Shown piece after piece: positions 11,965-52,900 of a stretch of 53,233 nucleotides of DNA. Location: the NCBI RefSeq assembly GCF_000003605.2, contig NW_003144289.1:134835-188067 (forward strand), given 5' to 3'. The notes under the pieces are model-generated. The model saw nothing but the letters and a program-made list of their open reading frames with translations, searched no databases and was not told the DNA's origin. Positions within the stretch are counted from its first letter, which is position 1; every line of letters starts with the position of its first letter. This stretch comes from Saccoglossus kowalevskii (taxonomy: Eukaryota > Hemichordata > Enteropneusta > Harrimaniidae). Made by a program: the position numbers and the translations under genes.

Positions 11965-12530
11965 ACATGATTTGCATATATGTTACATGATAAAATTTGC
12001 ATACATGTTACCTTGAATAATTTGCATACATGTCACAGGATCTATTTTGCATACATGTCATGTGATGCAATTTGCATACATGTCACAGGATGTAATTCGC
12101 ATACATGTCTGGGGATGTAATTTGCATACATGTTACAGGATTTAATTTGCATACATGTCATGTGACAAATTTGCATAGATGTCACAGGATGTAATTTGCA
12201 TACATGTTATGTGATAAATGTTAATACATTTGAATTGTTCAAATATAAATCATTTGCATAGATGTCACAGGATGTAATTTGCATACATGTTATGTGATAA
12301 ATGTTAATACATTTGAATTGTTCAAATATAAATCATTTGCATAGATGTCACAGGATGTAATTTGCATACATGTTATGTGATAAATGTTAATACATTTGAA
12401 TTGTTCAAATATAAATCATTTGCATAGATGTTACCTTGAATAATTTGCATGTCACAGGATCTAATTTGCATACATGTCACAGGATCTAATTTGCATACAT
12501 GTTCATACATTTGAATGGTTCAAATATAAA
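11965..12530. repeat. Minisatellite of ATTTGCATACATGT units with an 83-bp higher-order repeat
   Basis: The basic unit is roughly 25-30 bp: (T)AATTTGCATACATGT followed by CACAGGAT. The middle part repeats an 83-bp period three times (unit starts at 12169, 12252, 12335 and again at 12418), nearly identical. The array contains about 16 exact copies of ATTTGCAT, the POU/octamer element. Confidence 0.9.
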
Positions 12531-17600: not shown

Positions 17601-20600
17601 AACCTCACTATTTCACTTTCAATATCTCTCATTCAATCTCACTATTTCACACCCACTATCTCTCTCATTCAACCTCATTCAACCTCATTTTCTCACTATT
17701 TCACTTTTACTATCTCTCATTCAATCTCACTTTCTCATTATTTCACTTTCTCTATTTCTCTCATTCAGTATCACTTTCTCACTATCTCTTTCATTCAATT
17801 TCACTTTCTCTACTTCTCTCATTCAGTATCACTAACACACTGACATGCTCACTTACTCATTTTCAGTAATCAGTCATCATGATAACTTACTTTGAAAAAA
17901 TGGTAATTAGCATTGGAGTCCAAGTCACTAGTAGGTGCCAAGAAATTAAATATTCTCCAAAAACCTTCAATCTGAAACAAACAACACTTTTTTTAATGAT
18001 CACCAAACAATGGGTACTGATAAAGTCATAATACAATTTCTAAAACCCCAGATATAATCTGAGACAAGACTGTTTCTACAACCCCAGGATACTGATTTCT
18101 ATAATCCAAGATACTCTATTTCTACAACTTCAGATATTTAGTGATAAGGTAACAATACTGTTTCTACAACTCTAGATAAAGATAAATTGAAAATACTTAC
18201 TGTTTCAACAACTCCTAACTCTATCAGATTGCTACCATAATTCATGTAATCAGTACGAGTACGGCTGGTTTTATTTTCTCTGCTATCATACCAAAACTTC
18301 CTATAAAGAAAGAAGAAAATCAAAACTAACATTAACTTACACTAATACAACCAAGAATGTATAATGCCAAGTTACATCATACATCTTCAACACGCAATGC
18401 CTTCGACCTTTGCTGCAGTTTCCTATCCCTCTGGTCTATGATTGTTCACAATGACAAGACATAACAATATACATAAATAAGCATGTTGTTTGTCATTACA
18501 TTGATCTATGATAGCTTGGAGGCTACCTTTGTTAATATTCTCAAAATACACCAACTATTTTGCAGGTATTCCAGCTTGACAATAACATCACAGACATGGT
18601 ACCCAGAGATCACAGTTGTTCAAATTTAGTACAAAGGCAAGGTACTTTCATTTTCCTATTCATGTCAATTTGTTTCAATGAAATTTTCTTGACTATGTTA
18701 TCAACAATGTCTTGTTACCACACTCTTAGCTTTTATCCATACAATTCCTCTCTGAATGCTCTATCGTGTCATGCACACCTTCAAATTTGAAAATCTGTTC
18801 AAAAACTGTCCTTATGGGGCTCCTCATTTTTTTGAGAAGCCCCCCTGGCTCCCAGAAATTTCACATTTTATTTCTACCTAACAAATGTTGATCTCGACCT
18901 GGCTTAATCTTTACATAATTTATGTGTATTGTTAAACAAGCAGCATCTCGGCTGAGATAGCTCCACTGTTACCAATGCACATTTCAATTAAAGAACAGAA
19001 GATATCATTAGAAAATGAACAATATGTAGACTTCAAAAATATCACTTTTCACCAAAAATAACCATCAAAATTAGATAATTGAAGATATCACCACGAAATT
19101 AACAAATCTGAGAGAGGTCCACATGTAGTACCTATATATGTAATATCAAAGCAATTGGACTGGCGGTTTTCAACAAGAAGTCAAAAATATCACTTTTTAC
19201 CAAAGAATTACAAAAATATTCATCAAAATTAGAGCATTGAAGATATCATCATGAAATGTACAAATCTGAGAGAGGACCACATGTAGTACCTATGTATGTA
19301 ATATCAAAGCAATTGGACTTGTGGTTTTTAACAAGAAGTCGAAAATATCACTTTTTACCAAAAATGACAAAAATATTCATCAAAATCAGAGAATTGAAGA
19401 TATCATTACAAAATGAACAAATCTGAGAGAGGTCCACATGTAGTACCTATATATGTAATATCAAAGCAAGTGGACTTGCGTTTTTTAACAAGAAGTCGAA
19501 AATATCACTTTTTACCAAAAATGAAAAAAATATTCATCAAAATCAGAGAATTGAAGATATCATCATGAAATGAACAACTCTAGGAGAGGTATACCTAAGG
19601 TACATATACACCAAGTATCAAAGCATTCAGGCTTATAGTTTTCAAGAAGAAGTTGAAAAAGTAAAACATTGACTTGGACGACGGACAATCACTCAAAGTC
19701 GACAGCGGAGCTAAAAACACATCTGGGTAGACCTACCATTTGTACTGTAACGGATGGCCGACTACATTAGCGTTCCCAAACTGTGAGCTGACGACTGAGA
19801 ATTCTGGAATAGTTAACATCGATATATTGGCAAAAACATCATCTTCCACTGTGGTGTCACTACCAATACTCGCCAATGAACGACCAGAACCACAATAACT
19901 GCTCTCACTAAAATAGTAAAGACAAACATTAACGTTGTTATTAACATATATATCATAGATAATCATATATATCTTCATGATTTGATATATTTGCATTTTG
20001 TTTATTTAAATATTTTTTTATTGATGTTCATTATTAATAACAAAATTATAGCTTTATATATTTCATTTTCACATTGGTTTTGTTGTAAGTCCCCTAGTTA
20101 TGTTTATATGCTTGAACTGTGTTACAGAAAAGTCATTTGTTAATAAATCATGCTGTAACTATCAAATTTTAGAACTGTCTGACAAAACATTGAACACTCA
20201 GTCCTAAAACTTAAATAGAAACAGCTGTTTGTCAGTTGTTGGTTCTGAATAGCATAGAAACCCGGACAGAAAATAAACATATTGGCTTCGGCTCTATGTT
20301 TATTTTCCACCAGGTTTCTATCATCGTGTCCACTGTTCCAAATACCATTTTGATATAGATCAGGGGAACAATGGATGTGATAAACAGAAGAAAATGGAAC
20401 AATGCTTGAGGGGCAAAAACAAGTTGCATATTTCTCCCGCTCTCATCAAGATATCTGCGGCCATTTGTGTACAAGCGTGTTCTGGAGAGCACAAGTTGCA
20501 AAGCTTAAATTATGTTGATTTCGATATATTTAATTATTTTACATCGGTCACTGTAACGCCGTAATTTTGTGGTATTGCAGTGGGTATTTGCATCCTACCA

Positions 20601-26600: not shown

Positions 26601-29600
26601 ACTAAACTCAACAAACTCTCGCCATTTGTGAGACGGTCTTATGCAAATTACCCAACAACTCGTACATCGCGAGATGTGATTATGCAAATTACAGCTGATC
26701 ACTCATTTTAAGATGATGGACGATTTCGAGGCATGTTTTAGCGACGTTGATGAGTTTCTTGAAGTTTTTAGTGACTACGATGCAACTGACAGCGATTTTA
26801 TCGAAGAAGACGAACAAATTAACAATGAACATTATATACCAGAGAAATCTACTGGGCGACGCAACTTGAGTTTCTTGGATGTTAGAGGGTCTATGCTTCA
26901 AGCTTGTATTGTATTATTATGAACGAATACATTTCGGATTTTCCTGTATTCCCCAAAAGACAAGGTTTTTAGATATACAAACTTGAAAATGAAAGAACCC
27001 TTGCCTAGATTAAAGTTCACAAGCCATCTATCCTGTGTTTACTATTTGTTATTATAGCACAGCCTGTCAACCAATCAAAACTATGTATTCATATTCATTG
27101 ATTAGAGTTACATCATTGTCGCTTCATGAATCTGCATGAGGTCTTTTAATTCGGACAAATGAATTAGTAACCAAAAGCCAGAATGGCATTGAAATAATTT
27201 TGCAATCACTTCGTTTAGGTATTAAAATGTCCTGTGGTTCATAACAAGTCATTAAAAAGCTGCAACAAAGTAACACAGTTGGAGTTGAACATATCTTTAA
27301 CATCTACACATGGTGTCAGCCCTTAATATATTTCATGCAATGAACAACTTAGCCGATTAGGTCAGATCTATTTATAGTACCATCTATAGTATTTGTTTAC
27401 CATTGACATATTTTTTATGTATTTTTTCCATAATTTTCTATTTTCAACATTTTGGGAAAAAAGTAAAGAAAAATGTTATGAAAGTGTGGTTGATAGAAGT
27501 TGAGTTGGACATTCAAAAGGTAGAATTCCTTTGCAGTGTATGACAAATGTAAACCTGCTTCAAGGGGAAATAAATCAAAGATAATATATTGCAAACAGCT
27601 GTGATGATAATGACATGCATAAAATCTAGGATATTCCGGGTATTTAAGTTAGTACTATTAGAAAAAGACTTGCATACTGACCTGAATAGTATGTTAACTT
27701 GGTAATTAGCCCTTTGAATATCATATTCTTACCAACAAAGTTTTGCTGCAATAATTTGCATAATTTCATTTCTCTATACTTTTTCATAATTATGAATCAA
27801 AATAATACCTTATTGGCTAGGGGTCTTGATCAAAATCCTTGACAAAGTATGGACAAATTGGGCAAGTTTATTTGAGGAATGATAACAAAAATTGACTGTT
27901 GATTTTATACATTAAAATCATTCAATTCTAACAAATTATTTGTGATGAATTACTAAAGAACATAGTAAAACAATTGAAACCTTGCCCTTATTATATATAA
28001 TGTTACTGTTATCAAATTATTTCAAAGAAGAAATATAGTTTTATTTCACAGCATGGTTTGTGAAAGGAAATAATATATTATACTCCTAGATTTGAATATT
28101 CAATGAGACCTACTTTATCGCTTTTATATATATTATAATCAGAAAAAACATAACATAACTAATAATTGAGCCCATACAGTAAGTATTATTATACCAACAA
28201 CATACCAAAATTACTATTAAAGGACGGTGGTCATCGCGTAGTGCGCGTTTCATGTAAACATGCATTTTACCATCGTTGTGTATGAGCCGCATATTGAACA
28301 GGACATTCTGCGAAGACCACTGCCCTTTCACAAGGAACCAGTTATACTGAATGTATATGACACCATAAAATAATATAACATCTATCAGTTGCCTAATTTT
28401 CTTAACCAGATGACTTTTTCTTGGATCTACTGAACTCAGAGTAACCACACAATACTTATTGGGATCAATAGTTAAACCATCATTTCCAATTTATCTTGGC
28501 TTCAAAGTCAAATTCCTGACCTCATTTCTCCAACAAATATTCTCTATTTAAAATGCAATGCCAATGCTGCAATTAATTACTTTCCTTTAAAGATAATTTT
28601 AAGTTGACTCAAAGCATATATACAAGGCAGAATATATGTTGAAAAAACCTGTCAACACGCAAACTGCTTGCAAAAGCAAATTGAGCCAAACTACTATTAA
28701 GTGTGTTACTGCACATATGCTGCAGTGCATTATGGGAGAGAAGGAAAACTAGTATTACACTGGAAACTGACTCAATTAAATGACAATTTTTAGAAAATGT
28801 TAATAATATTAGGATTCATATCAACAGCAATACATGACTTTGAGATAAGAAGAAATAATTTCAACATGGAAACCAATGCAAAAAAGCAAATTGTACCATT
28901 TATCAAAGAGTGGCATTTAATAACTTATAATAATGAAAGCAAGAAGACGATGAAGAAGAAATATATACCCTTCAATTCAACTGGAACCTTCATGTACCAT
29001 AGGTCCCATGCGAAATACTATTTGCTGGGTTTTAATTTCACTATTTTCGTTGAAAGTAAAACTCTTTAAATTAAATCCACACGAACATGTAGAATAACAG
29101 GAGGACTCATACTTTTTTCTGCCAAGTTCGCAAACTTACCCCCAGTGAAATTACTCAAAATATCAAAATAGTGAAATTAAATGCCCATTTATAGTATACA
29201 ACACGTGTAAAACACAATTTGAAAACACACTAAATGACGACAATTGTCTGAATTACTATTTTATTAAAATACATACAAATGTTGATCTTAATAAATTGAA
29301 ATTAAATCTTACCTAAGTGAATCATCCCAGGTATTGTCTGACTGATAATTGTATCCTCTTTCTCTGCTGCCAGACCTTGAAAAAAGAAGAAACATCGTAA
29401 AAAGGGGAAAATCCAGCTGATAACAGCTGGCCAGGAACATTCAAGATGTTACAATTTTAGGAAATAAATTCATATTAATTCTTATCTTAAGACTAAATGA
29501 TTTTTTCCTTAATTGTATTATCAGCTCCATGTTCACTCTTGAAAAGCCATGGTCATGGTCATGCATTATAATTTTTCACAAATCAAAGTTTCATATAAAT

Positions 29601-32600
29601 ATGACCACATTACAGACATTTTTATTAAACTTCATTGGTTACCAGTTGTACAAAGAATCAATTTCAAATTACTTTTACTAGTGTATAAATCTTTGTATGG
29701 TTTTGCCCCAAATTATCTATGTGAATTAATCGAATTTTATGTACCGAGTCGTAGTTTAAGATCTGAATCGAAGTTTCTTATTAAAACTCGTCAGATGTGT
29801 AGTAAAAAGTCCAAGGTGTTATACAAAGACCGTGCTTTTGAAAATTTAGGTCCTAAACTTTTTAATGAATTACCTCTGTCTGTTCGTTCTAGTCCTTCAG
29901 TAGACATTTTTAAATCCAGACTGAAAACGCACTTATTTAAATGTGCTTTTAATATTTGACTGATTGTTTATTGTATCAGCGCCTTTGATCTTCATATGTT
30001 GGAATTGTTGCGCTTAATTAAATAGAGTTATTATTTCATTATTTTTCTAGAATTTTTCCAAATTTTGACCAATACTTTAGCCAATGTGAAATTAGATCCA
30101 TATAGAATCATAATTAATTAACAAATAAATTGTAGAAAAATAAATATATATGTGCAGACCCAACAATCTGTTTTGTTGAATTTCAGATGGAGGAAATGAA
30201 CCCCTTGTAGAAACCAGATAGACAAATAAGCAGAATGGTGTTACGGTAAGTATTCAGTTCACCAGTCAGTCTGATTATTGCGCATGATATCATATGGCAT
30301 GCTTAGATAAATAGTGTAATACATGGTAGCCCAAAGTTGCAATGCATTATAGGCTATATAGTGTTATACATAATGCGGAGATACTCTAAATTATAGTATT
30401 CTGAAACTCCATAGGGCAGTAGACCTTAGACAGTAGAAGGCAGTACAGCAATCTCATTGACCAATGAGTGCATACTTTGCAGTATTCTTGTGATAACCTT
30501 ATTATTATATTTCTTATTATTATACATCTGTCACTTTTGCGGTATTGTACTGGGTATTTTCATTCTACCATATTAGAAAAAGCAAATTCCAAATAAGGAA
30601 CGATTACGCGTGTAAGCGTCCTCCAATAATAAAAAAACAAACATGGCTGCCCCCAGGGTTTGACTGGACCCCACGCAAAGAAGATATGTTCTAAATGTTT
30701 TGGATTTTGGCATTGCAATGATGTATTCCTGGTAGGAAAAGATGTATAATAATAAGGTTATTACAAGGATACTGCAAAGTATGCACTCAGACAGTACGCG
30801 ATCGTATCAACCTCTGCTGCATGTCGGTTGATACTCCCGCTGTACTGTCTCCGTGCATACTTGCAGTATACTCATAATAACCTCATATTATTATACATAC
30901 ATGTATATTTTCCTGCTTGCAATATAAATCTGTTGCAAGACTATTACCAAAATGGGAATCAAAAATGTTTTTGGGAGTGTGAATATTTGCGTTCCGTGTC
31001 GTGCACTATAGTACTTCTGCATCTAATGCAACAAAAAGAAGTGTTTAAATGTGATGTCAATAACACATAACGTGTCAATGTCAGTGACATATTTACTTTT
31101 TTCAAGAGAAAATTTGAACAAGTGCTGACAAGTTTTCGAAAAAAAGTTCTGATACAGCTTTTTACGGAATGACAATTCTACTGTTTTTAGTGCCCAGATG
31201 TATAACAATAATATCATGGACAAGTTACAACTACAAAACAAAAGTTCTCCCAGATAAAATGAAAGAGTCAGTTACAATATAATATAAACAAGTAATGCAT
31301 ATACCTATTTCTATTACTCCGATTTCTTTTCTTCTGCCTTCGTTTCTTAGTCCCTGTTGACATTGAAAGACTAGATAAAGAACTTTGAGATGAAGACAGA
31401 TCTCCACCTCGTAAGGCACCATAGTTGAAATCCTCTGACGTAACTGATGGGGTTCTGAAAGTTCAAAAAAAAAATGAAGTAAACCCCAAAACTGTAAACC
31501 CCTAATTATTTGCTATTACATGCATCAATTACGGCAATAGACAAGTTTTGAGTTTCCTGGGTACTATGTTACTTTGTTACTGATCTTTTTTTTCTCTCAT
31601 AATTATCACAGTTCCAAACCATTAACTGTGCTGCCCCTAAAATCACTCATGTTAACTGTATTTAGGCGACCAGATATTGCTTTTTAAGACGAGTGATCAC
31701 TCGCCTATCACTGAAACCAAGACCCACAAGAGGTACATGTACATTTTATTATCACTCTCCAAATTCATACCATTTTGAAGAGATCTTAATTGCCCCCCCC
31801 CCCCACAAATCAGTTGCATAAAGTGTTCAGGGAAGCCATTTTAATCTCACTGTGATAGTTATAGACTTGTTAAGTTGCTGAGAGAATGCAAGTGACACAG
31901 AATTCTTTTGAGTGAATTATTGAATTGTATCAATGTCCTTTCACTTAAAAGCCTGTAGATCACATCAACACACTGTCTGCTGGCACCGCTTTTTCCATTT
32001 AATTATAATATGTCAGGAGGTTGTCAGCAGACAATGCATTAAGACGATCCAACAAGTGTGATATGCAATGAAAATCTAATTTGAAATTGCTGAATTACTA
32101 ATGCAAATAAGTTTCACAGGATTTATATCTTTGTAGTGCATATTAGTCAAAAATAAAATGAAGTGCATCAAGGCCCCCTTATAATCAATGTATGCAGCAA
32201 GTTTGAAAAGAATCTGTCCGTGCACGACTGAGATCTGGAATGGTGAATATGTGTTATTTTGATACATATTCAATATTCATTAAATATGGCTAACCTGGCT
32301 AATTTATTTTCACACAATAATACATTTCCAATTGGTCATTACATTCTGTGATGTCATTGGTCAGGAGTGAGTTTGATTGACATGTGCATGAAACTTGCAT
32401 AGAGTAGAATCTATATCACATATCACTGCGCATGGATATCAAATTTGCATATCCTTATATTATACATCCTTGATCACATAAAATCAAATGTTAATTACAG
32501 AAAACATTACCTAGATCGAGGTCCACCAGGGATTCTTTCCATACTCCTTGTATTTCTATAGTATATACCACTATCACTCCAGTTTTCACGTTTTGAGTTT

Positions 32601-34063
32601 ATCTGTCTAGGGGGTCTACTATATATGTCATCCCACTGTCCTGCAAACAGACATGGTCCATTCTCATCCCATCGGCGATTATGTTGTCTACTGTCAGAAT
32701 CTATTAGAGTACTTTCGACCCACTTTCCCGTATTGCGTCTACTATAGATGCCATCATGTGGGCCATCATTTATTGGCTGGTATCTTCTACTAGAATGTCT
32801 TTGTGCAGACGATGATCTAGACGGGGCTTTCCAGCTGCTCGGAGAAGAATCCCTGCTGCCACCACTGGTGCCACGATAACATGAATCACCAGTGGCATGC
32901 CAGTATGCTGGGGATGTTCTCCCGCTTTGTCGGTGATGGCCATCTTGTCGTCCTGACGGTGACTGTCTCCTCTCATGGTGGGGTGTGTAATTGTCTCTAT
33001 GACCAGCTGATGATGATCGTGTTCGCTCGTTCGGCTGTGGATACTTGTATTTTGAATTCCCATGATAACCCGAACTTTTTCTACTTGTATCATGTTCTTC
33101 AGAGTAAGATCTATTTTCGTGGTAATTCTTCGAAGACCTGCGTTCATGATGTGCATGTTTTCTGGTATCATTCCCATGAACATACGGTGATTGTTTCTCT
33201 TCTTGGTACCCAGATGTTGATCCTCTGTCATGACGACTGCTTTGAGAACTTCTCTGTGACTTCTTTCTACGTGAAGTACTACGCTCCTTTGATCGATCAC
33301 TGGTTGATCCTTTAGGTGGCAACTGTTCTCTCTGGTGAGGTCTTCCTATTGGTTCCATGTCTGCTTTTTTATGCGGCACTTTCTCAGTTTTTGATGTGAA
33401 TTCTAGAGTTGGAATTTCCGTTGGTAGCGTCAGTGGGGAAAAATCGGGCTCTTGTAAATCACCCCAGTTTGTTGTTTCAGTGTTATTTTCCTCTGGAAAT
33501 GTTTCTTTTTTAGCAGCATTAGTTTTTAAAGTAATAGCAAATTTGGAAACTTTAACTTCACGCTGTCGTGAACTCCTGGCAGTATTAGTCTTTTTAACAG
33601 ATTGTTTGTTATTATTTGCTCCTTCCCCAGATTGGGCATTGTTTTTTATTTTTGTGATTTTCGGGCTGTTGTGCGGAAACACAGATTGTCTTGTATCAGC
33701 AGGCTTCATCTCATTATTATTTTGTTTCAGAGTAATAGTCTTTCGAGATGTTTTGACTTCGGATTTTTTTCTATAATCTTGCAATGTGGAGTCATTCATG
33801 GTTTGCCTATCACTGGTAACAGGAAACCGTGGGATTCTGGACTCTATTTCAATACTCGGCAATGTATTTTGATCTGAAATCGCATCACCATTCATAACAG
33901 CGCTATTGTTGAAATGTATCATTGTGTGATCAGTAACTGATGTGCTACCTTTTCCTATTTTATTGTTCTGCTCATTAGTGCGCCGAAACACACGTTGACG
34001 TTGCTTCTGATAAAACGTTTGTGTGGTCTCTCTAGGGGTAGCAACACTGTTGCCCTTTGCCAT
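14605..34063 (-). CDS. eIF4E class II (4EHP/eIF4E2-like) cap-binding protein with long N-terminal extension
   Basis: Nine coding exons with consistent phases: 34063-32511, 31454-31305, 29375-29313, 19907-19737, 18300-18201, 17971-17891, 16820-16576, 15154-14968 and 14628-14605 (ending GAATTCAGGTGA). They give 857 residues. The eIF4E fold covers about residues 640-857: HPLQYKW and FWY at the start, FW at 683-684 (the dorsal Trp that binds 4E-BP/GIGYF-type partners), MPMWED at 711-715 (cap-stacking Trp713 and Glu714), GGKW, a GAVVS strand, and IALWTKN. The first cap-stacking position aligns to Tyr667, not Trp. That is the signature of class II 4EHP, a translational repressor that binds m7G-capped mRNA without recruiting eIF4G. 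The domain has a roughly 15-residue insertion after VPPN compared with 4EHP (recalled alignment). If the donor at 14967 is not used, the frame runs on to a stop at 14824. About 640 residues precede the domain, whereas typical 4EHP has about 50. Long introns hold minisatellites and transposons. Confidence 0.9.
15475..16310. repeat. 31/33-bp minisatellite in an eIF4E2-like intron
   Basis: Twenty-odd units of two interleaved types share CATATGCAGATTGTAAATC. One type is 33 bp (continuing ACTATGGTTGTATT), the other 31 bp (continuing TCTGATTGGATT). They alternate in a higher-order pattern. Because 33 is a multiple of three, runs of that type stay open and give spurious 11-residue peptide repeats on the minus strand. 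The array lies between the exons ending at 15154 and 16576. Confidence 0.92.
16905..17850. repeat. Polypyrimidine minisatellite (TCACTTTC / TCTCATTCAATC units)
   Basis: About twenty imperfect units of roughly 35-50 bp contain CTCATTCAATCTCACTTTCTC and ATTTCACTTTCACTATC. The plus strand is almost pure pyrimidine plus A, so the gene's transcript is purine-rich here. The 300-codon open frames across it reflect low complexity, not a gene. It fills the intron between the exons starting at 16820 and ending at 17891. Confidence 0.92.
18305..18937. other. Intron sequence without further features
   Basis: Intron of the eIF4E2-like gene. I see nothing supportable besides short AT-rich frames. Confidence 0.4.
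18938..19717. mobile_element. Inverted-end element, copy with internal tandem amplification
   Basis: It starts with AGCAGCATCTCGGCTGAGAT, then TAGCTCCACTGTTACC, and ends with GTCGACAGCGGAGCTAAAAA, so a TAGCTCCGCTGT-type end is inverted at the other side. The interior repeats a block of about 150-158 bp nearly four times (starting around 19035, 19193, 19341, 19498), each with AAAATATCACTTTTTACC and GAGAGAGGTCCACATGTAGT. Related copies lie at 23680 and 34190. No protein is encoded; this is a non-autonomous element. Confidence 0.8.
20255..20385. repeat. Imperfect hairpins from a palindromic element
   Basis: GAAAATAAACATA and TATGTTTATTTTC face each other across a 12-bp loop, flanked by AGAAACC and GGTTTCT. 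A second, weaker inverted pair (CACTGTTCC / GGAACAATG) follows. Probably a remnant of a foldback MITE in an eIF4E2-like intron. Confidence 0.6.
20386..21975. other. Intron, no gene seen
   Basis: Contains a block at 20560-20665 (CCATATTAGG...CAAATTCCAAATA...GGAACGATTAC) that recurs inside the element at 30466-30788. Otherwise AT-rich intron. Confidence 0.45.
21976..22400 (-). mobile_element. 5'-truncated LINE 3' end
   Basis: A (TAA)n tail on the plus-strand left side precedes a minus-strand frame with a C-x2-C-x8-H-x4-C knuckle (RICKICKTTEDEIHFIIHC) followed by a short helical end and stop. This is the C-terminus of a CR1/L2-like ORF2, like the one at 2966-4495. The 5' truncation is near 22400. 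Confidence 0.8.
22401..23679. other. Intron, two unexplained minus-strand frames
   Basis: Frames at 23159-22917 and 23469-23227 (80 codons each) show no known domain and lack paired splice sites in phase with the surrounding gene. I see nothing else. Confidence 0.35.
23680..23985. mobile_element. Inverted-end element, copy 2
   Basis: Begins AGCAGCCTCTCGGCTCAGAT and carries the same interior (ATGCACATTTCAATTAAAGA, GAGAGGTC, AATATCAAAGCAAT) as the element at 18938. The right end is decayed (GCTGACAGACTAAAAATG). Confidence 0.75.
24251..24425. repeat. Direct tandem duplication, 90-bp period, two copies
   Basis: A segment of about 84 bp (CTTATTGATCACATGACATG ... CACACATAAAAATCAGT) is repeated at a 90-bp spacing, nearly identical, which indicates a recent event. 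Confidence 0.9.
24430..26690. other. Intron, no gene seen
   Basis: AT-rich intron of the eIF4E2-like gene with a short (CA)n run near 26406. At 26650-26692 the sequence ATGCAAATTAC occurs twice. Confidence 0.4.
26713..26922 (+). CDS. Small acidic ORF, possible transposase N-terminus remnant
   Basis: A plus-strand ATG opens 69 codons, the first 50 strongly acidic with evenly spaced Asp/Glu and aromatics (MMDDFEACFSDVDEFLEVF, then SDFIEEDE), then STGRRN. Composition looks more coding-like than its surroundings. Acidic, Asp/Ser-rich N-termini like this are common in piggyBac-type transposases, but no catalytic domain follows, so this is inference only. It lies antisense within an intron of the eIF4E2-like gene. 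It may also be a first exon of an unrecognised gene. Confidence 0.35.
   Translation: MMDDFEACFSDVDEFLEVFSDYDATDSDFIEEDEQINNEHYIPEKSTGRRNLSFLDVRGSMLQACIVLL
26925..28216. other. Intron, no gene seen
   Basis: AT-rich, without supported genes or repeats. Confidence 0.4.
28217..28330. mobile_element. MITE-like element with terminal inverted repeats, copy 2
   Basis: TTAAAGGACGGTGGTCATCG at the left is inverted as CGAAGACCACTGCCCTTTCA at the right. The interior (TTTCATGTAAA, GAACAGGACA) matches the copy at 5374-5506. Confidence 0.78.
29067..29180. repeat. Dispersed repeat block, second copy of that at 5215
   Basis: TAAATTAAATCCACACGAAC through GCCAAGTTC and CCCAGTGAA to TAGTGAAATTAA matches the 5215-5335 block. 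Confidence 0.65.
29560..30030 (+). mobile_element. LINE reverse-transcriptase C-terminal fragment
   Basis: A plus-strand frame (to the TGA at 29957) reads the widespread non-LTR retrotransposon C-terminus: LHWLPVVQRINFKLLLLVYK, GFAPNYLCEL, RAFENLGPKLFNELPLSVR, then FKSRLKTHLFKCAF. It is 5'-truncated before the RT catalytic motifs and lies antisense in an intron of the eIF4E2-like gene, just beyond the exon at 29375-29313. Confidence 0.92.
30466..30788. mobile_element. MITE-like element with inverted ends of about 40 bp, plus a nearby third end
   Basis: GTGCATACTTTGCAGTATTC followed by ATAACCTTATTATTATA is inverted at 30740-30786 (AATAAGGTTATTACAAGGAT, CTGCAAAGTATGCAC). A third, shorter version of the end lies at 30850-30898. 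The interior shares the CCATATTAG...CAAATTCCAAATA block with 20560-20665. Confidence 0.78.
31460..32500. other. Intron of the eIF4E2-like gene
   Basis: AT-rich with a C14 homopolymer near 31794-31804. No gene seen. Confidence 0.4.
32511..34063 (-). CDS. First coding exon of the eIF4E2-like gene: disordered RS/HR-rich extension
   Basis: This 1553-bp exon encodes residues 1-517. ATG at 34063 has a good context (ACCATCATGG); the exon itself begins at 34092 after a CTGTAG acceptor. The text is low in hydrophobics and has no known fold. Residues 254-440 are rich in Ser, Arg, His and Gly, with SR and RS dipeptides (SKERSTSRRKKSQRSSQSSR at 258-277), resembling RS domains of RNA-processing factors. 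An internal duplication is visible: KTSRKTITLKQNN (104-116) and KVSKFAITLKTNA (171-183). Near the exon end the motif GIY/DIY-x-R occurs three times (438, 479, 499). The frame stays open upstream of the ATG through the putative 5' exon for about 40 codons without another ATG, so the start is likely but not proven. Plus-strand open frames across this exon are shadows. Confidence 0.85.
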
Positions 34064-34189
34064 GATGGTAGCCAGTTTGACTGGTAGTGTTTCTACAGAT
34101 GAAAAAAAATAATAAAATGTTATCAAATGCATAGTATTGTGAATATCATTCAGAAACTGTTCAAAAATTAAATAAGAATAATTACATAC

Positions 34190-34470
34190 AAGCAGCCTGT
34201 CGGCTGAGATAGCTCCGCTGTTACCAATGCACATTTCAATTAAAGAACAGAAGATATCATTAGAAAATGAACAATATGTAGACTTGCTGTTTTTAACAAG
34301 AATTCAAAAATATAATTTTTCACCAAAAAATGACAAAAATATTCACCAAAATTAGAGAATTGAAGATATCATCATGAAATGAACAAATCTAAGAGAGGTC
34401 TACCCAAGGTACATATGCAATCACTCATATGATAAGCTCAGCTCGACAAAGTCGACAGCGGAGCTAAAAA
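34190..34470. mobile_element. Inverted-end element, copy 3
   Basis: Starts AGCAGCCTGTCGGCTGAGAT with TAGCTCCGCTGTTACC and ends GTCGACAGCGGAGCTAAAAA; the termini TAGCTCCGCTGT / ACAGCGGAGCTA are exact inverse. It is the best-preserved short form of the family at 18938 and 23680 and lies in the first intron of the eIF4E2-like gene. Confidence 0.82.
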
Positions 34471-40900: not shown

Positions 40901-43900
40901 NNNNNNNNNNNNNNNNNNNNNNNNNNNNNNNNNNNNNNNNNNNNNNNCAGACGATAATGACATTTCAACACTATCCGTATTACTTTGCTCTGACTTGTCT
41001 ATGATTTATTGTGAATCCCAAGAAAGTTAATAATACTGTCTGAACAAAAATCGCACAACAGTTATATATATATTTATTCAGTACCATTGGCCATAGGCCA
41101 TAATGTACACGCTTAAATGTAACACAAATAAATAAATAGATCGTTTGACAAGAATAATCGCTGCTACTGCTTGTCTGAATATTACAAACTTATACTTCAC
41201 CTATGAATACCAAATTAAATTTATATTTCAGTTAAATTTCCCTCCAACAAACTATGACGTTTTTGTAAAGAGTAGAATGCGTATTTTGCAAGATTTTGTA
41301 TTGTATGTGTATTTTCAGATTGCAGTAGCAAAATAAATTTCTTTCAATCGCACAACAGTTATAATTACGTCGATTGGTTTTTAAGGGCAAGGTTTAATGA
41401 GGGAAATATGTCTGTCTACATTGTTGTTCAATCATCTTTGATCACCCTTACCGGTAATAAATCACTAAGTGAAGTGCACCACTTATGGCCAAACATTGTC
41501 TTTGTTGTTTACTTACCTCAACCATTGCTACAACTGGCATTATAAATAGTGCAAAATGAAATGAGTTTAGAGTAAATAAATTTTAAATGATGATTTTCAG
41601 TAAGAATAGACAAGCTCCTGGGTGTGTTCTCTAGTTGCTAGGTTCTTGAGCTCGCAAGTGAAGGGGAGGGGTTTACAGCTAGTCGTTGCTAGGTTCTTGA
41701 GCTCACAAGTGAAGGGGAGGGGTTTACAGCTAGTCGTTGCTAGGTTCTTGAGCTCACAAGTGAGGGGGAGGGGTTTACAGCTAGTCTTCTGACAGCCAGT
41801 TTATCTTACAAAGATATATACTGATACCAAAAGGATATAAATTATATTTTGTCCAACTTCATTGTGTGTGTGTATGAATGTAAAACATGTTTTCTATTTT
41901 TCGTGAGAAGTTTGTAAACTTTCAAAGGTAATGTGGGGGACTAAAATACAGTATTAACATGCTCGGAACAAAATGGAATCCAGTATGGTAAAATATCTGC
42001 CCAATACTGTGTACCGGGGGTATTTTTGCTGGCCCAGAGTGTTGATTTCCACCCTTTGTTTTGTACACAGGGAAGCTAAGCAATCAGGAAACTCAAAACT
42101 TGTCTATTGTATGTCAGATGAATGAGTATATCCACTTTTTATTTCTTCCTCTCAATGTTTATTACTGGGGCTTCCCCTATTTTATTTTTATATAAACTTA
42201 CTTTTACACAACCAAGTTTTCTTAGTTGTCTTGGCAACCAGTCATCGGACCTGACATTACTTTGCATCATGGCATTCATGTTTTTCAACAGAGTGGTGAG
42301 TATTTCAATATCATCTATAAATCTACTACTATTTCTTGTATGATGTGTTTTTATGTTTTTATTTTTGTGTTAATTTTAATCCTAGTGATACATGTAGTCT
42401 TATAGTTATACTCCGTCAAAAAAAGTGTGTACATTATAAATACAAAGTTACATAAATCTTTTGAGCAAGACTGATTTCAACTGAGACTGGTTTTTAAATT
42501 ATAATCATGTCATTCCTGACTGTGGTGGATATTATTATTAATCTATTAGAAGCGCATATACCAAAAAATGCATTTGTTATGGAATGAGTTCACCAAAATA
42601 ACTTTGACCTTAGAAACACCTCAGTCTGTGATTCCCGAAAGCACATGCGCTCCCAATGTAGTAAAGATGTTATTTATTTCTTTGTTCAGTTGTTATTCGT
42701 TGGAAATTGAAAATAAGTGCTTTCATTGTTTGGTTTTCTGTATGTGGAGGTAAAAGCATGGAGAGCATAAATATCTGTTGGTGCGTACCAGGTATACATT
42801 ATATAATCCTATTATGTACTAGTACGTGTTCAGTATTGAGGTTTTTTTTTATTCATAGAAAGTTATCTTACAATACATATTAGCTTATCTCCATGGGCTA
42901 GTTGAAGAAATCAAGAATGATAAAAAAGATGATATCAAAATTCCTTAAGAAGAAAATATCTCAGCAAGGCAGGAAATGCTGTCATATCATGCTAGGGACG
43001 CTACGTTGTCATATGGTGGTGTTGCATCAATAACGGTTCAAGCAAGATCTGGTAATTTTCTAGCTCCAGCTGATGATAGAAAAGTTACGACCAGACAGGA
43101 AAAATGTACGTATACATACTAATATTTAGTTCATTTCGTGTTCAGATATAATCACACTTTCGCATGTATGAAATGGCGAAACGTTATGTAGCGGGATACC
43201 ACTTTACGTCAATACAACGATGGGGATGCAAGCGTACCTGATGTGAACCATTTTATACTAGTAACTGTACCCTCACAGAAACAAAATGGAAGCCAGTTCA
43301 GATGAAACCAGTTAACGCAAATGTATTTCTTGTGTAGTAAATTTACAATGTATCTGAATTTATACATAATACTAACTATTTAGTAATAAACTCCTTTTAA
43401 ATTTCAAACAGCAGCTTATTTAGGCGAGATGTTTTTAAAACTCAAAAGGATGTCATTAATATGTAACAGTGAAGATAAACTTAGATTCTAAAGTTGCTGC
43501 AATTTTTGTATGAAATTTTAGAAATTGATTATAAGATCGTTCGTTTCAAATTTAGAAATCTAAACTGGTGGCTAAAATTTTACTCAGTCTATATAGCAAG
43601 GTGATAATGAAAATTATTAAAATGATAGATATGTTATTCATATAGCTGCAAATGAGCCCAAACTTTTGGCAATACAGCGGAGGAGAAGAACACAATACAT
43701 GTGTGCTTTACTCTAATGTGTAGTTCACTCACATGAAAGGTTTGAATCGCATTATTAAAAATTTAATATGATGTGTACACTACTAATCAATATACAACTA
43801 ATCTTCTCTTATAGGCAAAATTTTGCGCCATACTTATTATGATAGCCAAGGAAAAGGAAAAGTTGTGGTAATGTTTGAGTTTGAAGGCTGTGGTTTTATC

Positions 43901-46900
43901 AAGGCTTATACAAGGAAAGCTGTTCAAAGAATAAAAATTCACAAATCAAATCAAAAGAAAGGCAAAACAAGCGTGAGTTTTTGAAAGTCGTAAACCAGAA
44001 GACTTGCAGACCCGAGGGGATGGCAGACTGTTCTATCAGATAAAAATCAGAGAAGGAAAATACAAATATGAATCTGTGCACTTTCCTAATTATTATATGA
44101 GATGTAACAAACAAGGCAGAATAACCTTGAAATTAGTCAATGGCAAACTAACAAATAGTAGTATGAACTTCATCGTGAAAGATAATGATGAAATGAAGAA
44201 TGATTATTGTGATGCTAGTGATAACTGTGATGGTGTTGCTGCCATGCCTGATGACGATGACGACGACGACAACGACGATGACAGTAGAAGCGATAATGAC
44301 ACTGATGAAGATCCTGAATAACACTGTCAAAATTATGCTCTAGCATGATGTAATTTAGCTGTGAATTATTCTCAGTGTCAATTTCATTTGTTTCCAATGG
44401 AAAATTTCTACAATTTAGAAAAACAAGCAAAAACACTAAGATGAAGTACCAGTTGCGACATTTTTAATGATGATGATATGGGATTTCAGTTGTCAAGTAT
44501 TATAAATATATATTATAAATATACTGTATTCCATATTGGCTTTAATTTGTATGAAAACAAGTTTCAAAAATTTAAATTAGCCTGTAGACTCTGCTTTTTA
44601 CAGAAATGCACAAAATTAGTACCCCACATATTCACAACAATACAAAAGCATATGGAAAATGCAATGATATGGCACTACTGCTTTTATTTTCACTGCTAGG
44701 AATTGTAAGTAGTGGATATTATAACACTTGGAAAGACAAAACTTTGTCAAAGTCCTGACACTCTGTATCGAAGGACTCCAGAGAATTTGTCACTGCTATA
44801 GAATTTTGTAATTTTTACTGTAATTCAAGAAAATATGTCTATCATAAAATGAAAGTATATGGTGTATTAAAAACATGCACATTCATACTTGAATGCCTGC
44901 CTAGCACAAAATCATAAATTTCTTGTTCAATTTAAATGGGTAGTCAGTCTTGTTTCCATAGAAACAGGAATTTTAGTTTACCATTGAGTTATTGCGAAAC
45001 TGGGTAAAATTTTGAATTAGGTGATTCCTTTAGTTTTATTGGGTATATTGGTATTTATTGCTGTCACAGTTTTTTTTCTGATTTTCAGAAAATTCTACAA
45101 TTAACTTTATCACCATCTTTTCGATTATTTATTATTTAGAAGAATGTGGGTTCTTTCCCGGCACCTCACAGTCCAAATATGCCACTGTCATCTTCCAATT
45201 TGGTAGACAGCTTGATTCCTATAAGGCCAAAAAAAAAAAAAACTTATGTTGCCCTCAAGTGGAAAATTGGGTCGGTTGGTCGTCTTTTTTTTTTTCATTG
45301 AAATACAGATCAACCCGAGGTTAAAAGTCCCCACTTATTCCCCCGTGACCCCGGGGATCAAACAACGGTTCGGGATCGTTAACGCGACCCGATATTTCAT
45401 ATTTTTCGGTCGGCGCTGAGGGCAACAAAACAATTTTTTTTTTGGCCTAATTGTGTTACAAAAACCTCTCTACTACCTACATGTAATTCAACAATCCGAT
45501 AAAATGTAATGTAAATTTTTCATCTAAGGATTCAATGCCAACTCCAAAAATAATTATTTGTTCAAATGGATGTAATAGAAGGGTACGGTAATCATTGTCT
45601 TCAATGTTTTGATGGTACTTGGCAGACATAGTCTGTGATGCAGGCAGTGCAATAAGCATGTATGTTTTTAAAAACTGTTCAAATATATAACCCATAGTTT
45701 ACAACAAAAATCAATGTATTTTTCTCAAAAAATGTTTTGCTTAAATATTTGATGGTACACAAATTGTACAGTGTTAATCAATTCGTCAAAGAGGGCGCTG
45801 TGCAGTAGTGAAACAAGTGAAAAAAAAGGTCGACCCTACATGCTGACCAGAAACATTATTTAATTTTTTAGGCCTAATAAATATAGCCCTCTTTAAAGCA
45901 ATTAAAATAATTTTAGAAGCTTTTGCTTACATAATACCATACTAGAGATACATTTATGTTTTTATTTCTATGTTTATAATTTTGATAAAAATTATTGAGT
46001 GAAACCTTTACATAATGTTACAAATGTTTTTCTCTGACTTTATAATACACATTTCAAAATTTTTTTTTTTTTGAAGATTCCTGTATGCATTTGTGTTATA
46101 GAATGAAATAAACATGCTTTTCTCAAAAAAAAGGATGTCAATGACCATCTTGTTTTACTTTTGAAAATATTAATGTGTTTTCCTCTTCACAGAGAAGATG
46201 ATTGTCTCAATGTCCAAGGAGTTTGTCTTATTTAGTATACCTTTGACAAATTTGTTTTTTGTCTCTCTACTATATTATTTTACACCAAGGCAATTTTATC
46301 ATACTTTGTCTTGAAAGTGAGTGTCCTCTCAACTTCAAAGTTCAAACCGTTTCATCATGTCTAATTTGCATAAGAATATAATGTGTTAATTACCGCTAAT
46401 GATGTTGTTCATGCTGATTACTGTAAAATGACTAATTTTCAGTGGGTTTAAATTTCGCTAATTTACCATTTCAGGCATATTCAGTGGGTTTTAAATTCAC
46501 GGTTTTATCATTTAGATAATGTGTTCTATGCTAAATTTGACATATTCACTGGGTTTTAATTTAGCGCATTTTCCAGTCAGAGAAATAAGCAAAATTAAAA
46601 CCCAGTGAATAATTAATCCCTTTACAGTAGTACATGCTGGACTTTCTCCTCAACAGGTACTAATCACGGTTACTAAAAACCGTAGGCTTAGGCCAAAAAA
46701 AAGAATTGTTTTGTTGTACTCAGCGACCGACCGAAAAATATGAAATATCGGTACCTCGGCTATTTACAATACCCTTAGTTTTCACGAGTTTAAAAAAAAA
46801 AAAAAAATTCGACCGACCGACCCAATATTTCAATGTTCCGACTTGAGGGCAACATAAGTTGTTGTTTTTTTTGGCCTTATGCATGTAGATTAGTCAATTT

Positions 46901-49900
46901 GTATGTCAGTCTGTTGTCATTATGGGACGTACATTCAGTGACCAATTTTAGGAACATGGAAAATCAGAACTTAGCATAATCTCTCCATTTAAGGTTAACC
47001 CCCTCCTCCAACCCCCAAATTAAAATTTTGTGCAAAGAAAGGGCAACTAAAAAGCCATGGCTATTATACTCATAAATGCAGTAACCACAATAACATTTGC
47101 ATATCGTAATACTATTAATGACTTGGAAAAAATACTGGGACTTCCCCTTATTTATTTATTTATATAAACTCACTAGTACCAATACAGTTTCCTTTGTCGT
47201 CTCGGCAACCAGTCATCGTAACTGTGCATCATGGCTTTCATATTTGTCAACAACGTGGTAAGTATCTTTAAAAATGTCTTTTCTTGTCTGAAGTTGAATC
47301 TTTTTATTTATCTGATCCATTTGATTGTGTTAGCCTGATGTAATAACGTCATTTTCAGCTTTGATAATGCATTCCAAAGTAAGTTTAGGAGTGATTGAAC
47401 TACTTCAAAGATGGGCCGTCGAGGCAATCAGACTTTTTCCATCTTAGCCGTTTAGACTATATACCATATGCATAAGTTTATTCCTTTTTCTCCGAGAGAT
47501 GTTGTGTGATTCAACCCTATTTACTTGAAACTGTTTTAATTTGTCAAATTTGTTTGAATTTTGTGAGTTATGGAAATCATGAATTTTTCTAACTGAAAAT
47601 TTTACTGGGGTCATTTAGACATTAAATTTTGTTATTAGGGACCCCCTAATTAAATTATGACTATATGTATGAAATTTCATTGGTTAAAGTGGTCTTTCAT
47701 TATCCAAGTTGTGCTTTTCTTTTCTACACAGAAAGGCATCAAACAATATATGTTTGCAGAAATTGGTGGAAAAATCAGTGAAACCAGGAACAGTGAAAAA
47801 AATGACGTCAAAATTCCTTCAGATGAAAATATCCAGACATGCAAAGAGATACTGTCCTATAGTGCTAAAGATGCTACAATACGGTATAATGGTGTTGCAA
47901 CAATAACCATCCAGACAAGATCTGATCTCTATCTAGCTCCAGCTGACGATCGAAAGGTTAGAACAAGACAGAAAAAATGTACGTACTTATTATATGTATC
48001 TATCAAATTTGTCAAATGATTAAAGACCTGAAAATACATGAATCACATCAGCGGGAAGTATACGATTATCGCAGTAGTGAAACGTTCGTATCCATTCGTC
48101 TTTGGATCTAAACGATTTTGTCTGTGTCGGTGTACATTTTGGTCCATTCAATGCAAGAACTGTTATTTTTATATTGAAAATATGTAATACATGTCATATT
48201 TAAACTTACAATGCTAGAAACTACTTGTAAATTGTTAAAATTCAACAATAAACTGCAATACAGAAAAAAAAAACAATAAAAAAAATTAAAATACCCATCT
48301 TTTATATTATGGCAAACCAAAATACTCATGACAAATGTATTTTTTCTCTTATTTTACTAGGCAAGATCTTGCGCCATACATTCAATGATATCCAAAAAGG
48401 AGTTGTGGTAATGTTTGAGTTTGAAGGCACTGGATTTATTAATGCTTATAAAAGGAACAATGTTCCCAGACTAAAAATTAATAAATCAAACCAAAAGAAA
48501 GGCAAACAGGCCAGAGTTACAGGAAATCGTGCACTAGAGAGTCTGCAGACATGGAAGGATCCAAGACTGTTTCATCAGATTAATATCAAGAAAAGCAAAT
48601 ACACATATGCATCGGTGCATGTAGAGGGTTACTATTTAAGAGTTACCAGGAAAGGCAGAGTAACGTTAACTTCAGTAAACGCAGACAAAACAAAATCTAA
48701 TATGATTTTTAATGTGAATGAGGGTAATAGAAATGATAGTGAGTGTGATGGGGATGATGAATGTGATGGTGGTGCTGAGATTTCTACGGAAGATGATGAT
48801 GATGACGAAGATGATGTCAAAGATGTCGAAGATGATGATGATGATGACAGTGAAGATGATGACGATGTCGATGTCGATGACAGTACAATGGTGATGACAG
48901 TTATTATGACAATAATGATGGTGATCATGATCATGACAGTGCAATGGTAGTGACATTGATTGCAATGATGATGACACCTATACTGTATTTAATGTACTTA
49001 TTCAAGACTGTAGAATAGCTGTAGAAAATTTAGCTTTTCATTTAGTATAATGACATAATAAAATATTTTAATAGGGTAAAAAAAAATGTTTTGCTCCTCG
49101 TTCTGTAAAAAACTGGAAAACAACACAGTGATGAATTTTCAATATTCTTTGTATTGAGATTATTCAATACCATTACCACAAGATATGTATTCACTGTTTA
49201 GCATTTATTAAATACCGTTTTTGAATACATGCATTAATTGTTGATTTGGATCAACAAGTCATTCTCTGAAACAGAAAACAAGTATTTCGCCAGTGTACCA
49301 TATATGGCACTCTTTACCAGTGTGAGGCTCATGTTTCAAACTGACGAGCATGATGACGAGAGGCAAAACCTAATTTGAGTTTGTGGGGCGGGGGCTAAAG
49401 CATAACTTTCTATAAACAAATTTGTTTATTGTAAGCCTCATATAAAATTTGTTGTCTGTAGTTGTAGTCTACTGAAAGCGTGTAGCTATAGTTCTGTTAA
49501 ATTATTTGGAATATTTACAGCATACCATATAAACTATTTATTCGTGTTAGTTTGATCGGTTTACATCGTTTATAGCTTTATTTAATATATACTAATACTT
49601 TGTTTTGAGACAATGTTGCTGTTTAACTTTTTCACTACCATTCACAAGAGAACATGGCGTGTACATTTCTGATTCAAACCTTGTAGCCCAATTGATCTGT
49701 TTCATATTTAGAACGTTTAATTTAAAACCCAGTTTGTAATTAACGTAAAACTTACATATTTTGTACTACAGAACAATAACATTTGCATGTTTTTGTGCGT
49801 CAGTGTGCGAGGATCAGAGGAATTTGCATCATATGTTTATTTAATTATCTCTTTTATCAGGGCATTTTAAAGAACAATATTAGTAATTGACATTTTTTCA

Positions 49901-52900
49901 GATTTAATACAAGTACAATAAAAGTGTTTTTGTCGCAGTTTAGAACACAAAAAAACATGTTTACTAAAAATGAACTATCATAATCTCGTACATGTATAAC
50001 TCGCCTTACACACCCCTTCACTTTCACTTAAATTTGATACATGGTTTAGAACAGAAACATCTCAAAGGGGAAGGTGCTTTGCTAAAGTGCAAACACACAT
50101 GTTCAGGTTGTAATGTACAAGCTTTGAGTATTGCTGCTTCTGCATGATGTGGACTGTACCATTGATCTCTAGGGGTAGCTGCTCTAAATTGGTATGGTAA
50201 TGTTCCTATCAGTTCAATTTGTTTCATGTATAACTGTTTTTTTTTTTAAATGAAACCCAAATGATCTTGAATTAGATGTCAAACTAAATAAAAATAAATA
50301 TAAACAATGCACTGCTATTAAAGATTACATTTGGGTATATGCAGGAATTGTTAGTATTTAAATACAGGGCAGAGAATTAGACATTACATGAGCAATTTTA
50401 ATGAAGGTATGAAGTTTTTTCCCAAGTAATTCAATAATAAGATAAAAACTGGTACTACTGTGGGATACTTTATTTTCACTGGAATTAATTTTTGCTGAAA
50501 AGCTTTTTGAGTGTTCGAATTTATTTTGATGAGTTGAATGTGAAATATAGGAAAAAAAGTATATTCACTAAGTTTTATTTTCACAGAATCATCCCTTCAG
50601 CGAAAATAGCGAAAACAAATTCCAAGCGAAAATAAAGTATTCTACAGTATTTCAATTTCTAAAATCACTATGCATGTGTTTATTTGATTTGTCTGTAATT
50701 TCTAATTATCTTTATTATTAATTATCCTTATTATTAATTATCCTCCACATAGAAAGATTACAATCACATACATGTATACCAGTAGATTTGTTGAAATGCT
50801 ATGATCATTATTATTCAATAAAACCTTTTGCTACTATTGAGTTATTCTCTTATTTATGTATACCAGTGTCACTCATCCATGATAATTAGGAAGTTATAAA
50901 CACTTCCACATCCAATTGTGTATTGTAGTTACTTCCTTGTAGAGAGCTACTTTCAGGCAGTTTATCGTCTTAGTTTCCTCCTTGCCTAGCTTCCTGCTTT
51001 CCTGGTATTGCTTCCAATTTTTTTTTAATCTTTTCACCACCAGTTCTCTATTTCCATCAAAATTAATTCACAAAATAGTTCTGTTTATAGTCTGCACTTT
51101 CCTTCAGAAGATTGGGACAAAAATTGACTCAAATTGTGTTTGTTGGCTCCAAAATTAGGGTTCATTTCCAGAAATATTGAAAAATATTAGAAAATAGTGC
51201 AGAAAAAATTGGGCAAGAAGGTCTGGTGGTGAAAAGGTTAATGATGAATGATTTGATATCTGCTGTTATAATCAAAATATTTAAAACAAAATATTTCTTT
51301 CCTGTTGATGACAATGAATGACACTTTTGTATACCTATCCTGTTTGTTTTTATGTGTGAAAATGATCAGCACAAATGCCTACGGTAGTACTGTAAATCAT
51401 TTACTTTCTCAAAAGACAATTTTTCGTGAGTTTGTAAAAAATCTTATCCTAAGACCCTGAGTGTCAGTGAGTTTCACAAAATGTTGTTGTCACAAATGTC
51501 ATAAAATACTAAAATCACAAAAAATTCTGGCAGTGAAAATTAAAAAGTTTACTCGTACATTGGTGTGTTTGCTCATATTCACTATGTGACTGCACTATAA
51601 TGGCAATTTGATGTGCTGTCTATATAATTCAAATCAGCATGGTCGAATATCCATTTAGTTTACCACGGTGACATTTATAATCAGCCAATCCAAATGTATG
51701 TTAAATATGTTTGTACATTCATTAAATTGTCATTATCATCGGTGCCATGCATTTACTGTAGAGAATTGGAATACATATAATATACACTAATTTGGGTTTA
51801 TCACGCCAGTCATAAACTCATCTGACATCTAATGTATAATGCTTTCCTGTCTTTTTCAAGTACTGGTACCATTATACTTATTTATGAATGAATGAATGAA
51901 CTTTATTGTTCCCGTGTAAAAAAGAGTAGGTTACATAGGGTGTTTGCAACAATAAAGAATTTTTGTTAACAAGATAATATTTTGAAAATAACTAGAATGA
52001 ATGTACTTAAAATTCACAAATAAATAAATATGTATAAAAAATAAATACACAAATAAATTATTAAAGAAATCTAATCTCTAATTTTGGTCTCAGCTAAAAT
52101 AAAGTTTGATATCTCTTGTTGAACTAATTTATCTTGATGTGAAAGTAAATATGTGAAACGAGAAATGCTATTGTCAGCCGAAACTTCAATTTTATGTAAC
52201 AGTTGAGATCTCTGCTGTTCATATTTTTGACAGTCTAAAAGGAAATTGATCTCATCTTCAATGCAATTATTACAAAATTGACAAAGTCTGTTATTTATTG
52301 GTACTTTAGGGATAGAATGTCTGCCTTTTTCAATAGCTAAACTATGATCGCTAACCCTGAATTTAGTGAACATTTTTCTATTTTCACCATTCAAATTTAC
52401 TCAAATTACACAAACATTATGACACAAACAATTCAAATTACAGTCTATATTTTATATGAATACACACTGTGCATGGTGAACACCCCAGGCATGAAAATGT
52501 AGGAAAACACAATGTAAAATAAATAAATATTTAATGAAACTATAGCATGTGAAAACAACATTGTTCAAAGGTATTTGTAATTACTAATTCTCCCGAAATG
52601 ATATTGTTAAAATTAGTAGATGCAGGTATGTAGAAGCAGCGTGACTGCTGATGCAGTTGAGTAACTGTGATCACACTAAATACCATGAGAGCTCACGCGA
52701 ACACGACTAGGAGCGAATGGTGGAGAATAAAGTGACAACTGCAGTGACCCCCAGCACATATTTTTTTCAACAAGAATAATTTTTCATGATGGGGGTGCAT
52801 GGGGTGTGTTTCCTTACTTATAAGGAGATTGACATATTATTTACAAATTTAATTTTGAATATGATTTTTATTTTTTCGGTTTTTGCAGATTGTTGACTTG

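Follow-up and report, generated by a model that had tools for sequence, protein, structure and literature searches.

A tandem gene pair and a third gene of the hemichordate Saccoglossus kowalevskii with probable kinship to the IL-1/IL-18 cytokines

In this work we analyzed a stretch of 53,233 nucleotides from the hemichordate Saccoglossus kowalevskii (NW_003144289.1, positions 134,835–188,067 of the forward strand; hereafter the window), which lies inside a 398-kb contig and contains a tandem pair of genes between window positions 42,189 and 49,062. A first-pass annotation of this DNA had described both members of the pair as three-exon genes for IL-1-like beta-trefoil cytokines. The exon layout was largely confirmed, since the two copies agree in the length of the first (27 bp) and the second exon (247 bp) and both have GT/AG borders, but copy 1 proved not to be intact.

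Copy 2 has a reading frame open across 287 codons. Its exons, all on the plus strand, are located at 47231–47257 (27 bp, starting at the ATG), 47732–47978 (247 bp, ending in phase 1, one base into a codon) and 48361–48950 (590 bp including the stop). Within exon 3, the remainder of the putative trefoil coding region (48363–48734, plus strand) is followed by an acidic C-terminal tail (48732–48947, plus strand) whose last approximately 20 residues are hydrophobic. An AATAAA sequence at 49057–49062 (plus strand) is a possible polyadenylation signal. Upstream of both genes there is a box-like stretch, TATATAAACT, conserved between the copies and located on the plus strand at 42189–42198 before copy 1 and at 47161–47170 before copy 2. 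No hydrophobic leader was visible in copy 2 on inspection by eye, made without a signal-peptide program. It should be mentioned that the part of the copy 2 tail at 48792–48950 is a GAT-type repeat, and the hydrophobic residues at its end might happen to act as a tail anchor.

Copy 1 shares this layout, with plus-strand exons at 42269–42295 (27 bp, starting at the ATG), 42859–43105 (247 bp) and 43815–44321. Codon 39, in exon 2, is an in-frame TAA (42946–42948), and exon 3 is frameshifted: the frame is lost near 43964–43984 and runs into a TGA at 43982–43984. The frameshift is spanned by a 37-nt GT...AG stretch (43973–44009), a candidate intron that would be a very short one. Because of the in-frame stop and the frameshift, copy 1 is probably a pseudogene; both defects may also be assembly errors. 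An open piece of exon 3 (43977–44318, plus strand) retains the IL-1-like motif described below and an acidic tail. Upstream of copy 1, a run of N, possibly a gap in the assembly, is found at about 40.0–40.95 kb of the window, and a tandem array of 51-bp units (41634–41786) lies approximately 400 bases before the gene.

Comparison of the copies revealed that identity is concentrated in the coding parts and the start of the gene. It amounts to 69.6% in exon 2, 70.4% in the trefoil part of exon 3 and 76.5% in the 5' flank plus exon 1, versus 48.3% and 48.8% in the introns and 47.5% in the 3' flank. The ratio of nonsynonymous to synonymous substitution rates (dN/dS) was 0.42 over 200 codon pairs (bootstrap 0.26–0.64), and for exon 2 alone it was 0.40 in the correct frame versus 0.74 and 1.77 in the wrong frames. 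Both copies descend from a constrained coding gene and were under purifying selection in the past. It is quite improbable that the locus is wholly dead, with copy 2 no longer a working gene either: copy 1 is broken and the end of copy 2 looks like an eroded repeat with a hydrophobic run, but copy 2 keeps its 287 open codons, its GT/AG borders and the conserved upstream stretch. When copy 2 was compared with the whole genome (a 572-Mb assembly of 4830 contigs, used for all genome-wide searches), the five matches found all lay within the two window copies. The mitochondrial contig of this assembly has 17,037 bases. With tRNAs located by ARAGORN and genes identified by eye in open frames, its order is cox2-atp8-atp6-cox3-G-nad3-R-nad4L-nad4-H-S-nad5-cob; cox1 is on the opposite strand, nad2 precedes nad1, and tRNA-Lys carries the anticodon TTT. 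In the 12 genes that were counted, AGA is used 4 times and AGG never, and the single AAA codon of cox1 stands at a lysine. For Saccoglossus kowalevskii, PMC3121625 describes an inverted cox1, a transposed nad1 or nad2, the anticodon UUU and AAA read as Lys, so the mitochondrial data by themselves point most likely to a hemichordate close to Saccoglossus. The rearrangements described in PMC2034537 for the lancelet Asymmetron are different.

The trefoil fold had been proposed on the basis of three internal repeats in copy 2, and for these we obtained no statistical support. At the claimed repeat offsets the ungapped BLOSUM62 sum was −26, with 5 of 200 shuffles as good at the same offsets, and the best repeat triple anywhere in copy 2 scored 18, a value equalled in 175 of 200 shuffles. 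As there is no signal over shuffles, the three-fold repeats were dropped as an argument for the fold. The proposed IL-1-like C-terminal motif is, by contrast with the repeats, present, and it carries the match of copy 1 to the Pfam IL1 family. The C-terminal piece of copy 1 matched IL1 at E 0.0043 (17.2 bits; cut-off 25) and, after trimming, at E 0.0015, still under the cut-off; no other Pfam family matched this piece with E < 0.1. In the PDB, 27 of its 29 matches were IL-1beta or IL-18, all with E values of 0.25–1. The full-length copy 2 protein matched TFIIA and similar Pfam families, which we attribute to composition because these matches vanish once the acidic tail is removed.

A third gene was revealed by a search of the whole genome with the PF00340 profile, which matched two places. 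The first is an IL-1/IL-18-like gene with two or more exons on contig C4267 (600–1962, minus strand; locus L009). Its protein, 170 aa from an internal ATG, matched Pfam IL1 with 26.9 bits (E 4e-6), above the cut-off of 25 that neither window copy reached, and IL1 was its sole Pfam match. Unlike the window copies, it has no acidic tail. On inspection by eye, no leader was visible in this protein either. The first exon of this gene is uncertain, with a candidate upstream exon at 2213–2159; compared with the whole genome, the gene matched nothing but itself. The second place (L008, C2343:172146–172340; 19.9 bits, E 0.196) was read as a chance match, since the stretch holds a stop and an apparent tandem duplication. 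A 220-bp element, 91% identical between window positions 46416–46629 and positions 1333–1552 of L009, where it lies in the intron, has the look of an inverted repeat and is perhaps a small transposon.

When the three genes are aligned, the second intron of copies 1 and 2 and the intron of the C4267 gene share one column, and all are in phase 1, which supports common ancestry. A phase-1 intron is also present near this position in IL1B and in FGF genes, so that by itself the intron does not tell IL-1 from FGF. Vertebrate IL-1beta genes have more exons.

The C-terminal motif F/Y-E-S ... P-N/G-W/Y-F/Y, used as a mark of membership, was found, the corresponding segments being YESVHFPNYY in copy 1, YASVHVEGYY in copy 2 and FQSASCPNMF in the C4267 protein. 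The copy 1 segment (YES..FPNYY) resembles FES..FPNWY of IL-1beta, and that of copy 2 is closer to FESSSYEGYF of IL-18. To compare the three genes jointly with known structures, we used a profile (A3) composed of the C4267 exon, copy 2 exon 3 and the copy 1 piece against 177635 distinct PDB sequences (E ≤ 10). It gave 37 matches, 34 of them IL-18 or IL-1beta, although these rows are mostly near-identical variants of two proteins and their number is not independent evidence. The top 15 rows were IL-18 (2.6e-6 to 3e-4), followed by 19 weaker IL-1beta rows (0.048 to 1.2). The remaining rows were 3kmv, 4iiw and 9fnk (E 0.14 to 1), and none was an FGF. IL-18, which was also the best match of a profile built from the window pair alone, is similar to the new genes in its last strands and, as judged by eye, in showing no leader; the window pair differs from it in belonging to a hemichordate, in its acidic C-terminal tail and in the low identity.

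Similar results were obtained with a profile built from six human proteins of the IL-1 family, whose sequences were entered by hand. The C4267 protein scored 24.6 bits and the copy 1 piece 18.8 bits, each reached by none of 5000 shuffles, while copy 2 scored 10.6 bits, reached by 1 of 5000. Among 2385 open reading frames (ORFs) from 339.9 kb, a set in which overlapping loci are repeated and loci were partly picked for IL-1 likeness, C4267 (23.7 bits), copy 1 (17.0) and copy 2 (8.8) took the top ranks. Alignment with hhalign to the IL-1 set gave P 4.4e-9 for the three genes together (5.2e-8 in a second run) and 3.4e-7 for C4267; residues 44–215 of copy 2 align colinearly with this set.

FGF and IL-1 have the trefoil fold in common, and the first-pass annotation had left room for a convergent FGF-like or other trefoil. 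If the predicted fold holds, the window pair could be a divergent member of such a family whose likeness to IL-1 lies mainly in the last strands. With a profile built from three FGFs, copy 2 scored 4.4 bits (a value matched by 90 of 5000 shuffles) and copy 1 scored 2.6 bits (269 of 5000). In the A3 search, 3kmv and 9fnk (E 0.14 and 1), which belong to the three rows that are not interleukins, are what we take to be bacterial CBM42 trefoil domains. Nevertheless, none of the three genes matched FGF (PF00167) in Pfam, the three-FGF profile gave C4267 nothing, hhalign against FGF yielded P values of 0.22–0.79, and the IL-1 profiles scored all three genes far above the FGF profiles. In the genome, FGF gave 16 matches, which sit on other contigs and end near profile positions 33 and 70. 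We therefore consider an FGF or other trefoil origin of the pair unlikely. Profile comparison establishes a joint relation in sequence of the three genes to known IL-18 and IL-1beta, and not to FGF or other trefoils.

Several results weigh against including the window pair in the IL-1/IL-18 superfamily. Copy 2 without its tail had no Pfam match at E ≤ 10, either to IL1 or to FGF, and none in the PDB or NCBIfam. The profile built without C4267 reached only 0.29 at best in the PDB. In the ORF ranking, copy 2 is not separated from the background, the next, unrelated ORF having 8.4 bits. With hhalign, the pair gave P 4.5e-4 (probability 14.1%) and copy 2 alone P 1.6e-3 (6.3%). A direct comparison of the pair with C4267 likewise shows only a weak link (3.9 bits, with 45 of 10000 shuffles as good; BLASTP 0.14).

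This marginal signal of the pair would suit the explanation that C4267 is a true IL-1 relative and the window pair an unrelated lineage-specific family that resembles it by chance. We regard this as rather unlikely, although somewhat less so than the FGF alternative, given that (i) the only Pfam match of copy 1 below E 0.1 is IL1; (ii) seven of the eight PDB matches of the pair-only profile are IL-18; (iii) the IL-1 scores of the copies were reached by 0 and 1 of 5000 shuffles; and (iv) the pair and C4267 have the intron column and phase in common. Nothing was found in favor of vertebrate contamination of the assembly, to which we give next to no weight: no solved IL-1 was closely matched, and the window lies in its 398-kb contig and shares the 220-bp element with the C4267 intron.

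The best-supported reading, with a probability of about 0.7, is that copy 2 represents the IL-1/IL-18 superfamily in a hemichordate, copy 1 being its decayed tandem duplicate and the C4267 gene a shorter, tail-less relative. The invertebrate IL-1 relative suggested initially is supported in part, with the help of C4267; the argument from internal repeats fails, and copy 2 alone is marginal. Judged from the profile scores, membership in the superfamily is well supported for C4267 and probable for the window pair.

Cytokines of the IL-1 family are trefoil proteins without a leader. They are released by damaged or inflamed cells and bind receptors that combine immunoglobulin (Ig) domains with TIR tails. 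The copy 2 protein, with no visible signal peptide, would consist of an N-terminal extension of roughly 45–60 residues, a predicted beta-trefoil core of approximately 155–170 residues and the acidic C-terminal tail. Most likely, it would be retained in cells and exit upon damage or infection, perhaps once the extension has been removed. It would then be bound by a receptor of the cell membrane whose outer part consists of extracellular domains and whose cytoplasmic part holds a TIR domain; some candidates of this kind in the genome have weak Ig-like matches. The acidic tail might bind histones or other basic proteins, but this is a guess.

TIR proteins are present in the genome, with 23 matches at E ≤ 0.001; the TIR matches of four loci (L022, L025, L027 and L028) begin at profile position 43–44, which suggests a split at this point. 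When 14 regions around TIR matches were scanned for Ig-like motifs, frames were marked in L041, which is doubtful, L044 (C2738:26600–36599) and L046 (C3066:2100–12099). Ten frames of the latter two loci were compared with Pfam, and HYR (4.2e-15 and 7.1e-15) and TIR (1.6e-15 and 3.7e-14) matched with certainty, while Ig (best 0.0064 and 0.0068) and EGF (best 0.0029 and 0.02) remained below the cut-offs. A hydrophobic segment was seen by eye in these loci. The arrangement of HYR and weak EGF or Ig matches in frames upstream of TIR is an unusual receptor layout. L044 and L046 are no more than possible receptors for the IL-1-like proteins.

Other observations speak against a ligand and receptor system of the IL-1 type. 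TLR1 was the closest match of the L044 TIR domain (3.6e-23), ahead of the IL-1 receptor accessory protein (4.4e-18), both values being from a query joined by eye. The Ig_6 domain (PF18452), presumably a mark of IL-1 receptors, had three matches in the genome, all of them under the cut-off and on contigs that lack a TIR match. An exon-by-exon search for gasdermin returned no match at E ≤ 1, so release would need another route. It is somewhat short of an even chance that hemichordates have a working axis of an IL-1/IL-18-type ligand and TIR receptors. Synteny with the IL18 locus was not confirmed, since SDHD, which we take to be a neighbor of that locus, is on C1752 and not on C3528 or C4267.

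The published statements that we consulted place the family in vertebrates. According to passages of the respective papers, IL-1 is a vertebrate innovation (PMC9382457, 2022) and the family can be traced to the earliest vertebrates (PMC12108812); a homologue of IL-1beta or IL-18 was not found in invertebrate genomes (PMC11508797, 2024), nor was an IL-1-like homologous sequence identified in invertebrates (PMC9020223, 2022). The latter paper adds that the receptors preceded the ligands. Passages of another paper argue that a relation of IL-18 and IL-33 to IL-1 cannot be demonstrated at the sequence level (PMC5861070). In the passages retrieved from the open-licence PMC literature, we found no report of an invertebrate IL-1 or IL-18 gene.

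If a working axis exists in hemichordates, the family would predate vertebrates, with an origin no later than the divergence of chordates and ambulacrarians. In that case IL-1 and IL-18 would be branches of one ancestor, contrary to the separate origins argued for in the passages of PMC5861070, and the form with the acidic tail would add a new architecture to the family. A hemichordate relative would also be a ligand candidate for the Ig/TIR receptors of invertebrates, and sequences matching both IL-1 and IL-18 would allow their disputed common origin to be tested.

Besides the gene pair, the window contains several other features. At 16899–17869 one strand is strongly C-rich (GC skew −0.48), with degenerate repeats of the CACTTTC/CTCATTCAATC type, and all three forward frames are open for approximately 280–310 codons. 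Tandem arrays are found at 11970–12502 (units of 25–83 bp), 15485–16326 (33 bp) and 19053–19590 (157 bp). On the minus strand, an open frame of 598 codons (32507–34303), which is enriched in Ser, Arg and His, matched no Pfam family below E 0.09. Finally, three frames at 3127–3459 (minus strand), 29543–29959 (plus strand) and 52071–52400 (minus strand) look by eye like the ends of reverse transcriptases of the long interspersed nuclear element type, the first being the only one of them with a match, a weak one to zf-RVT (E 0.067).

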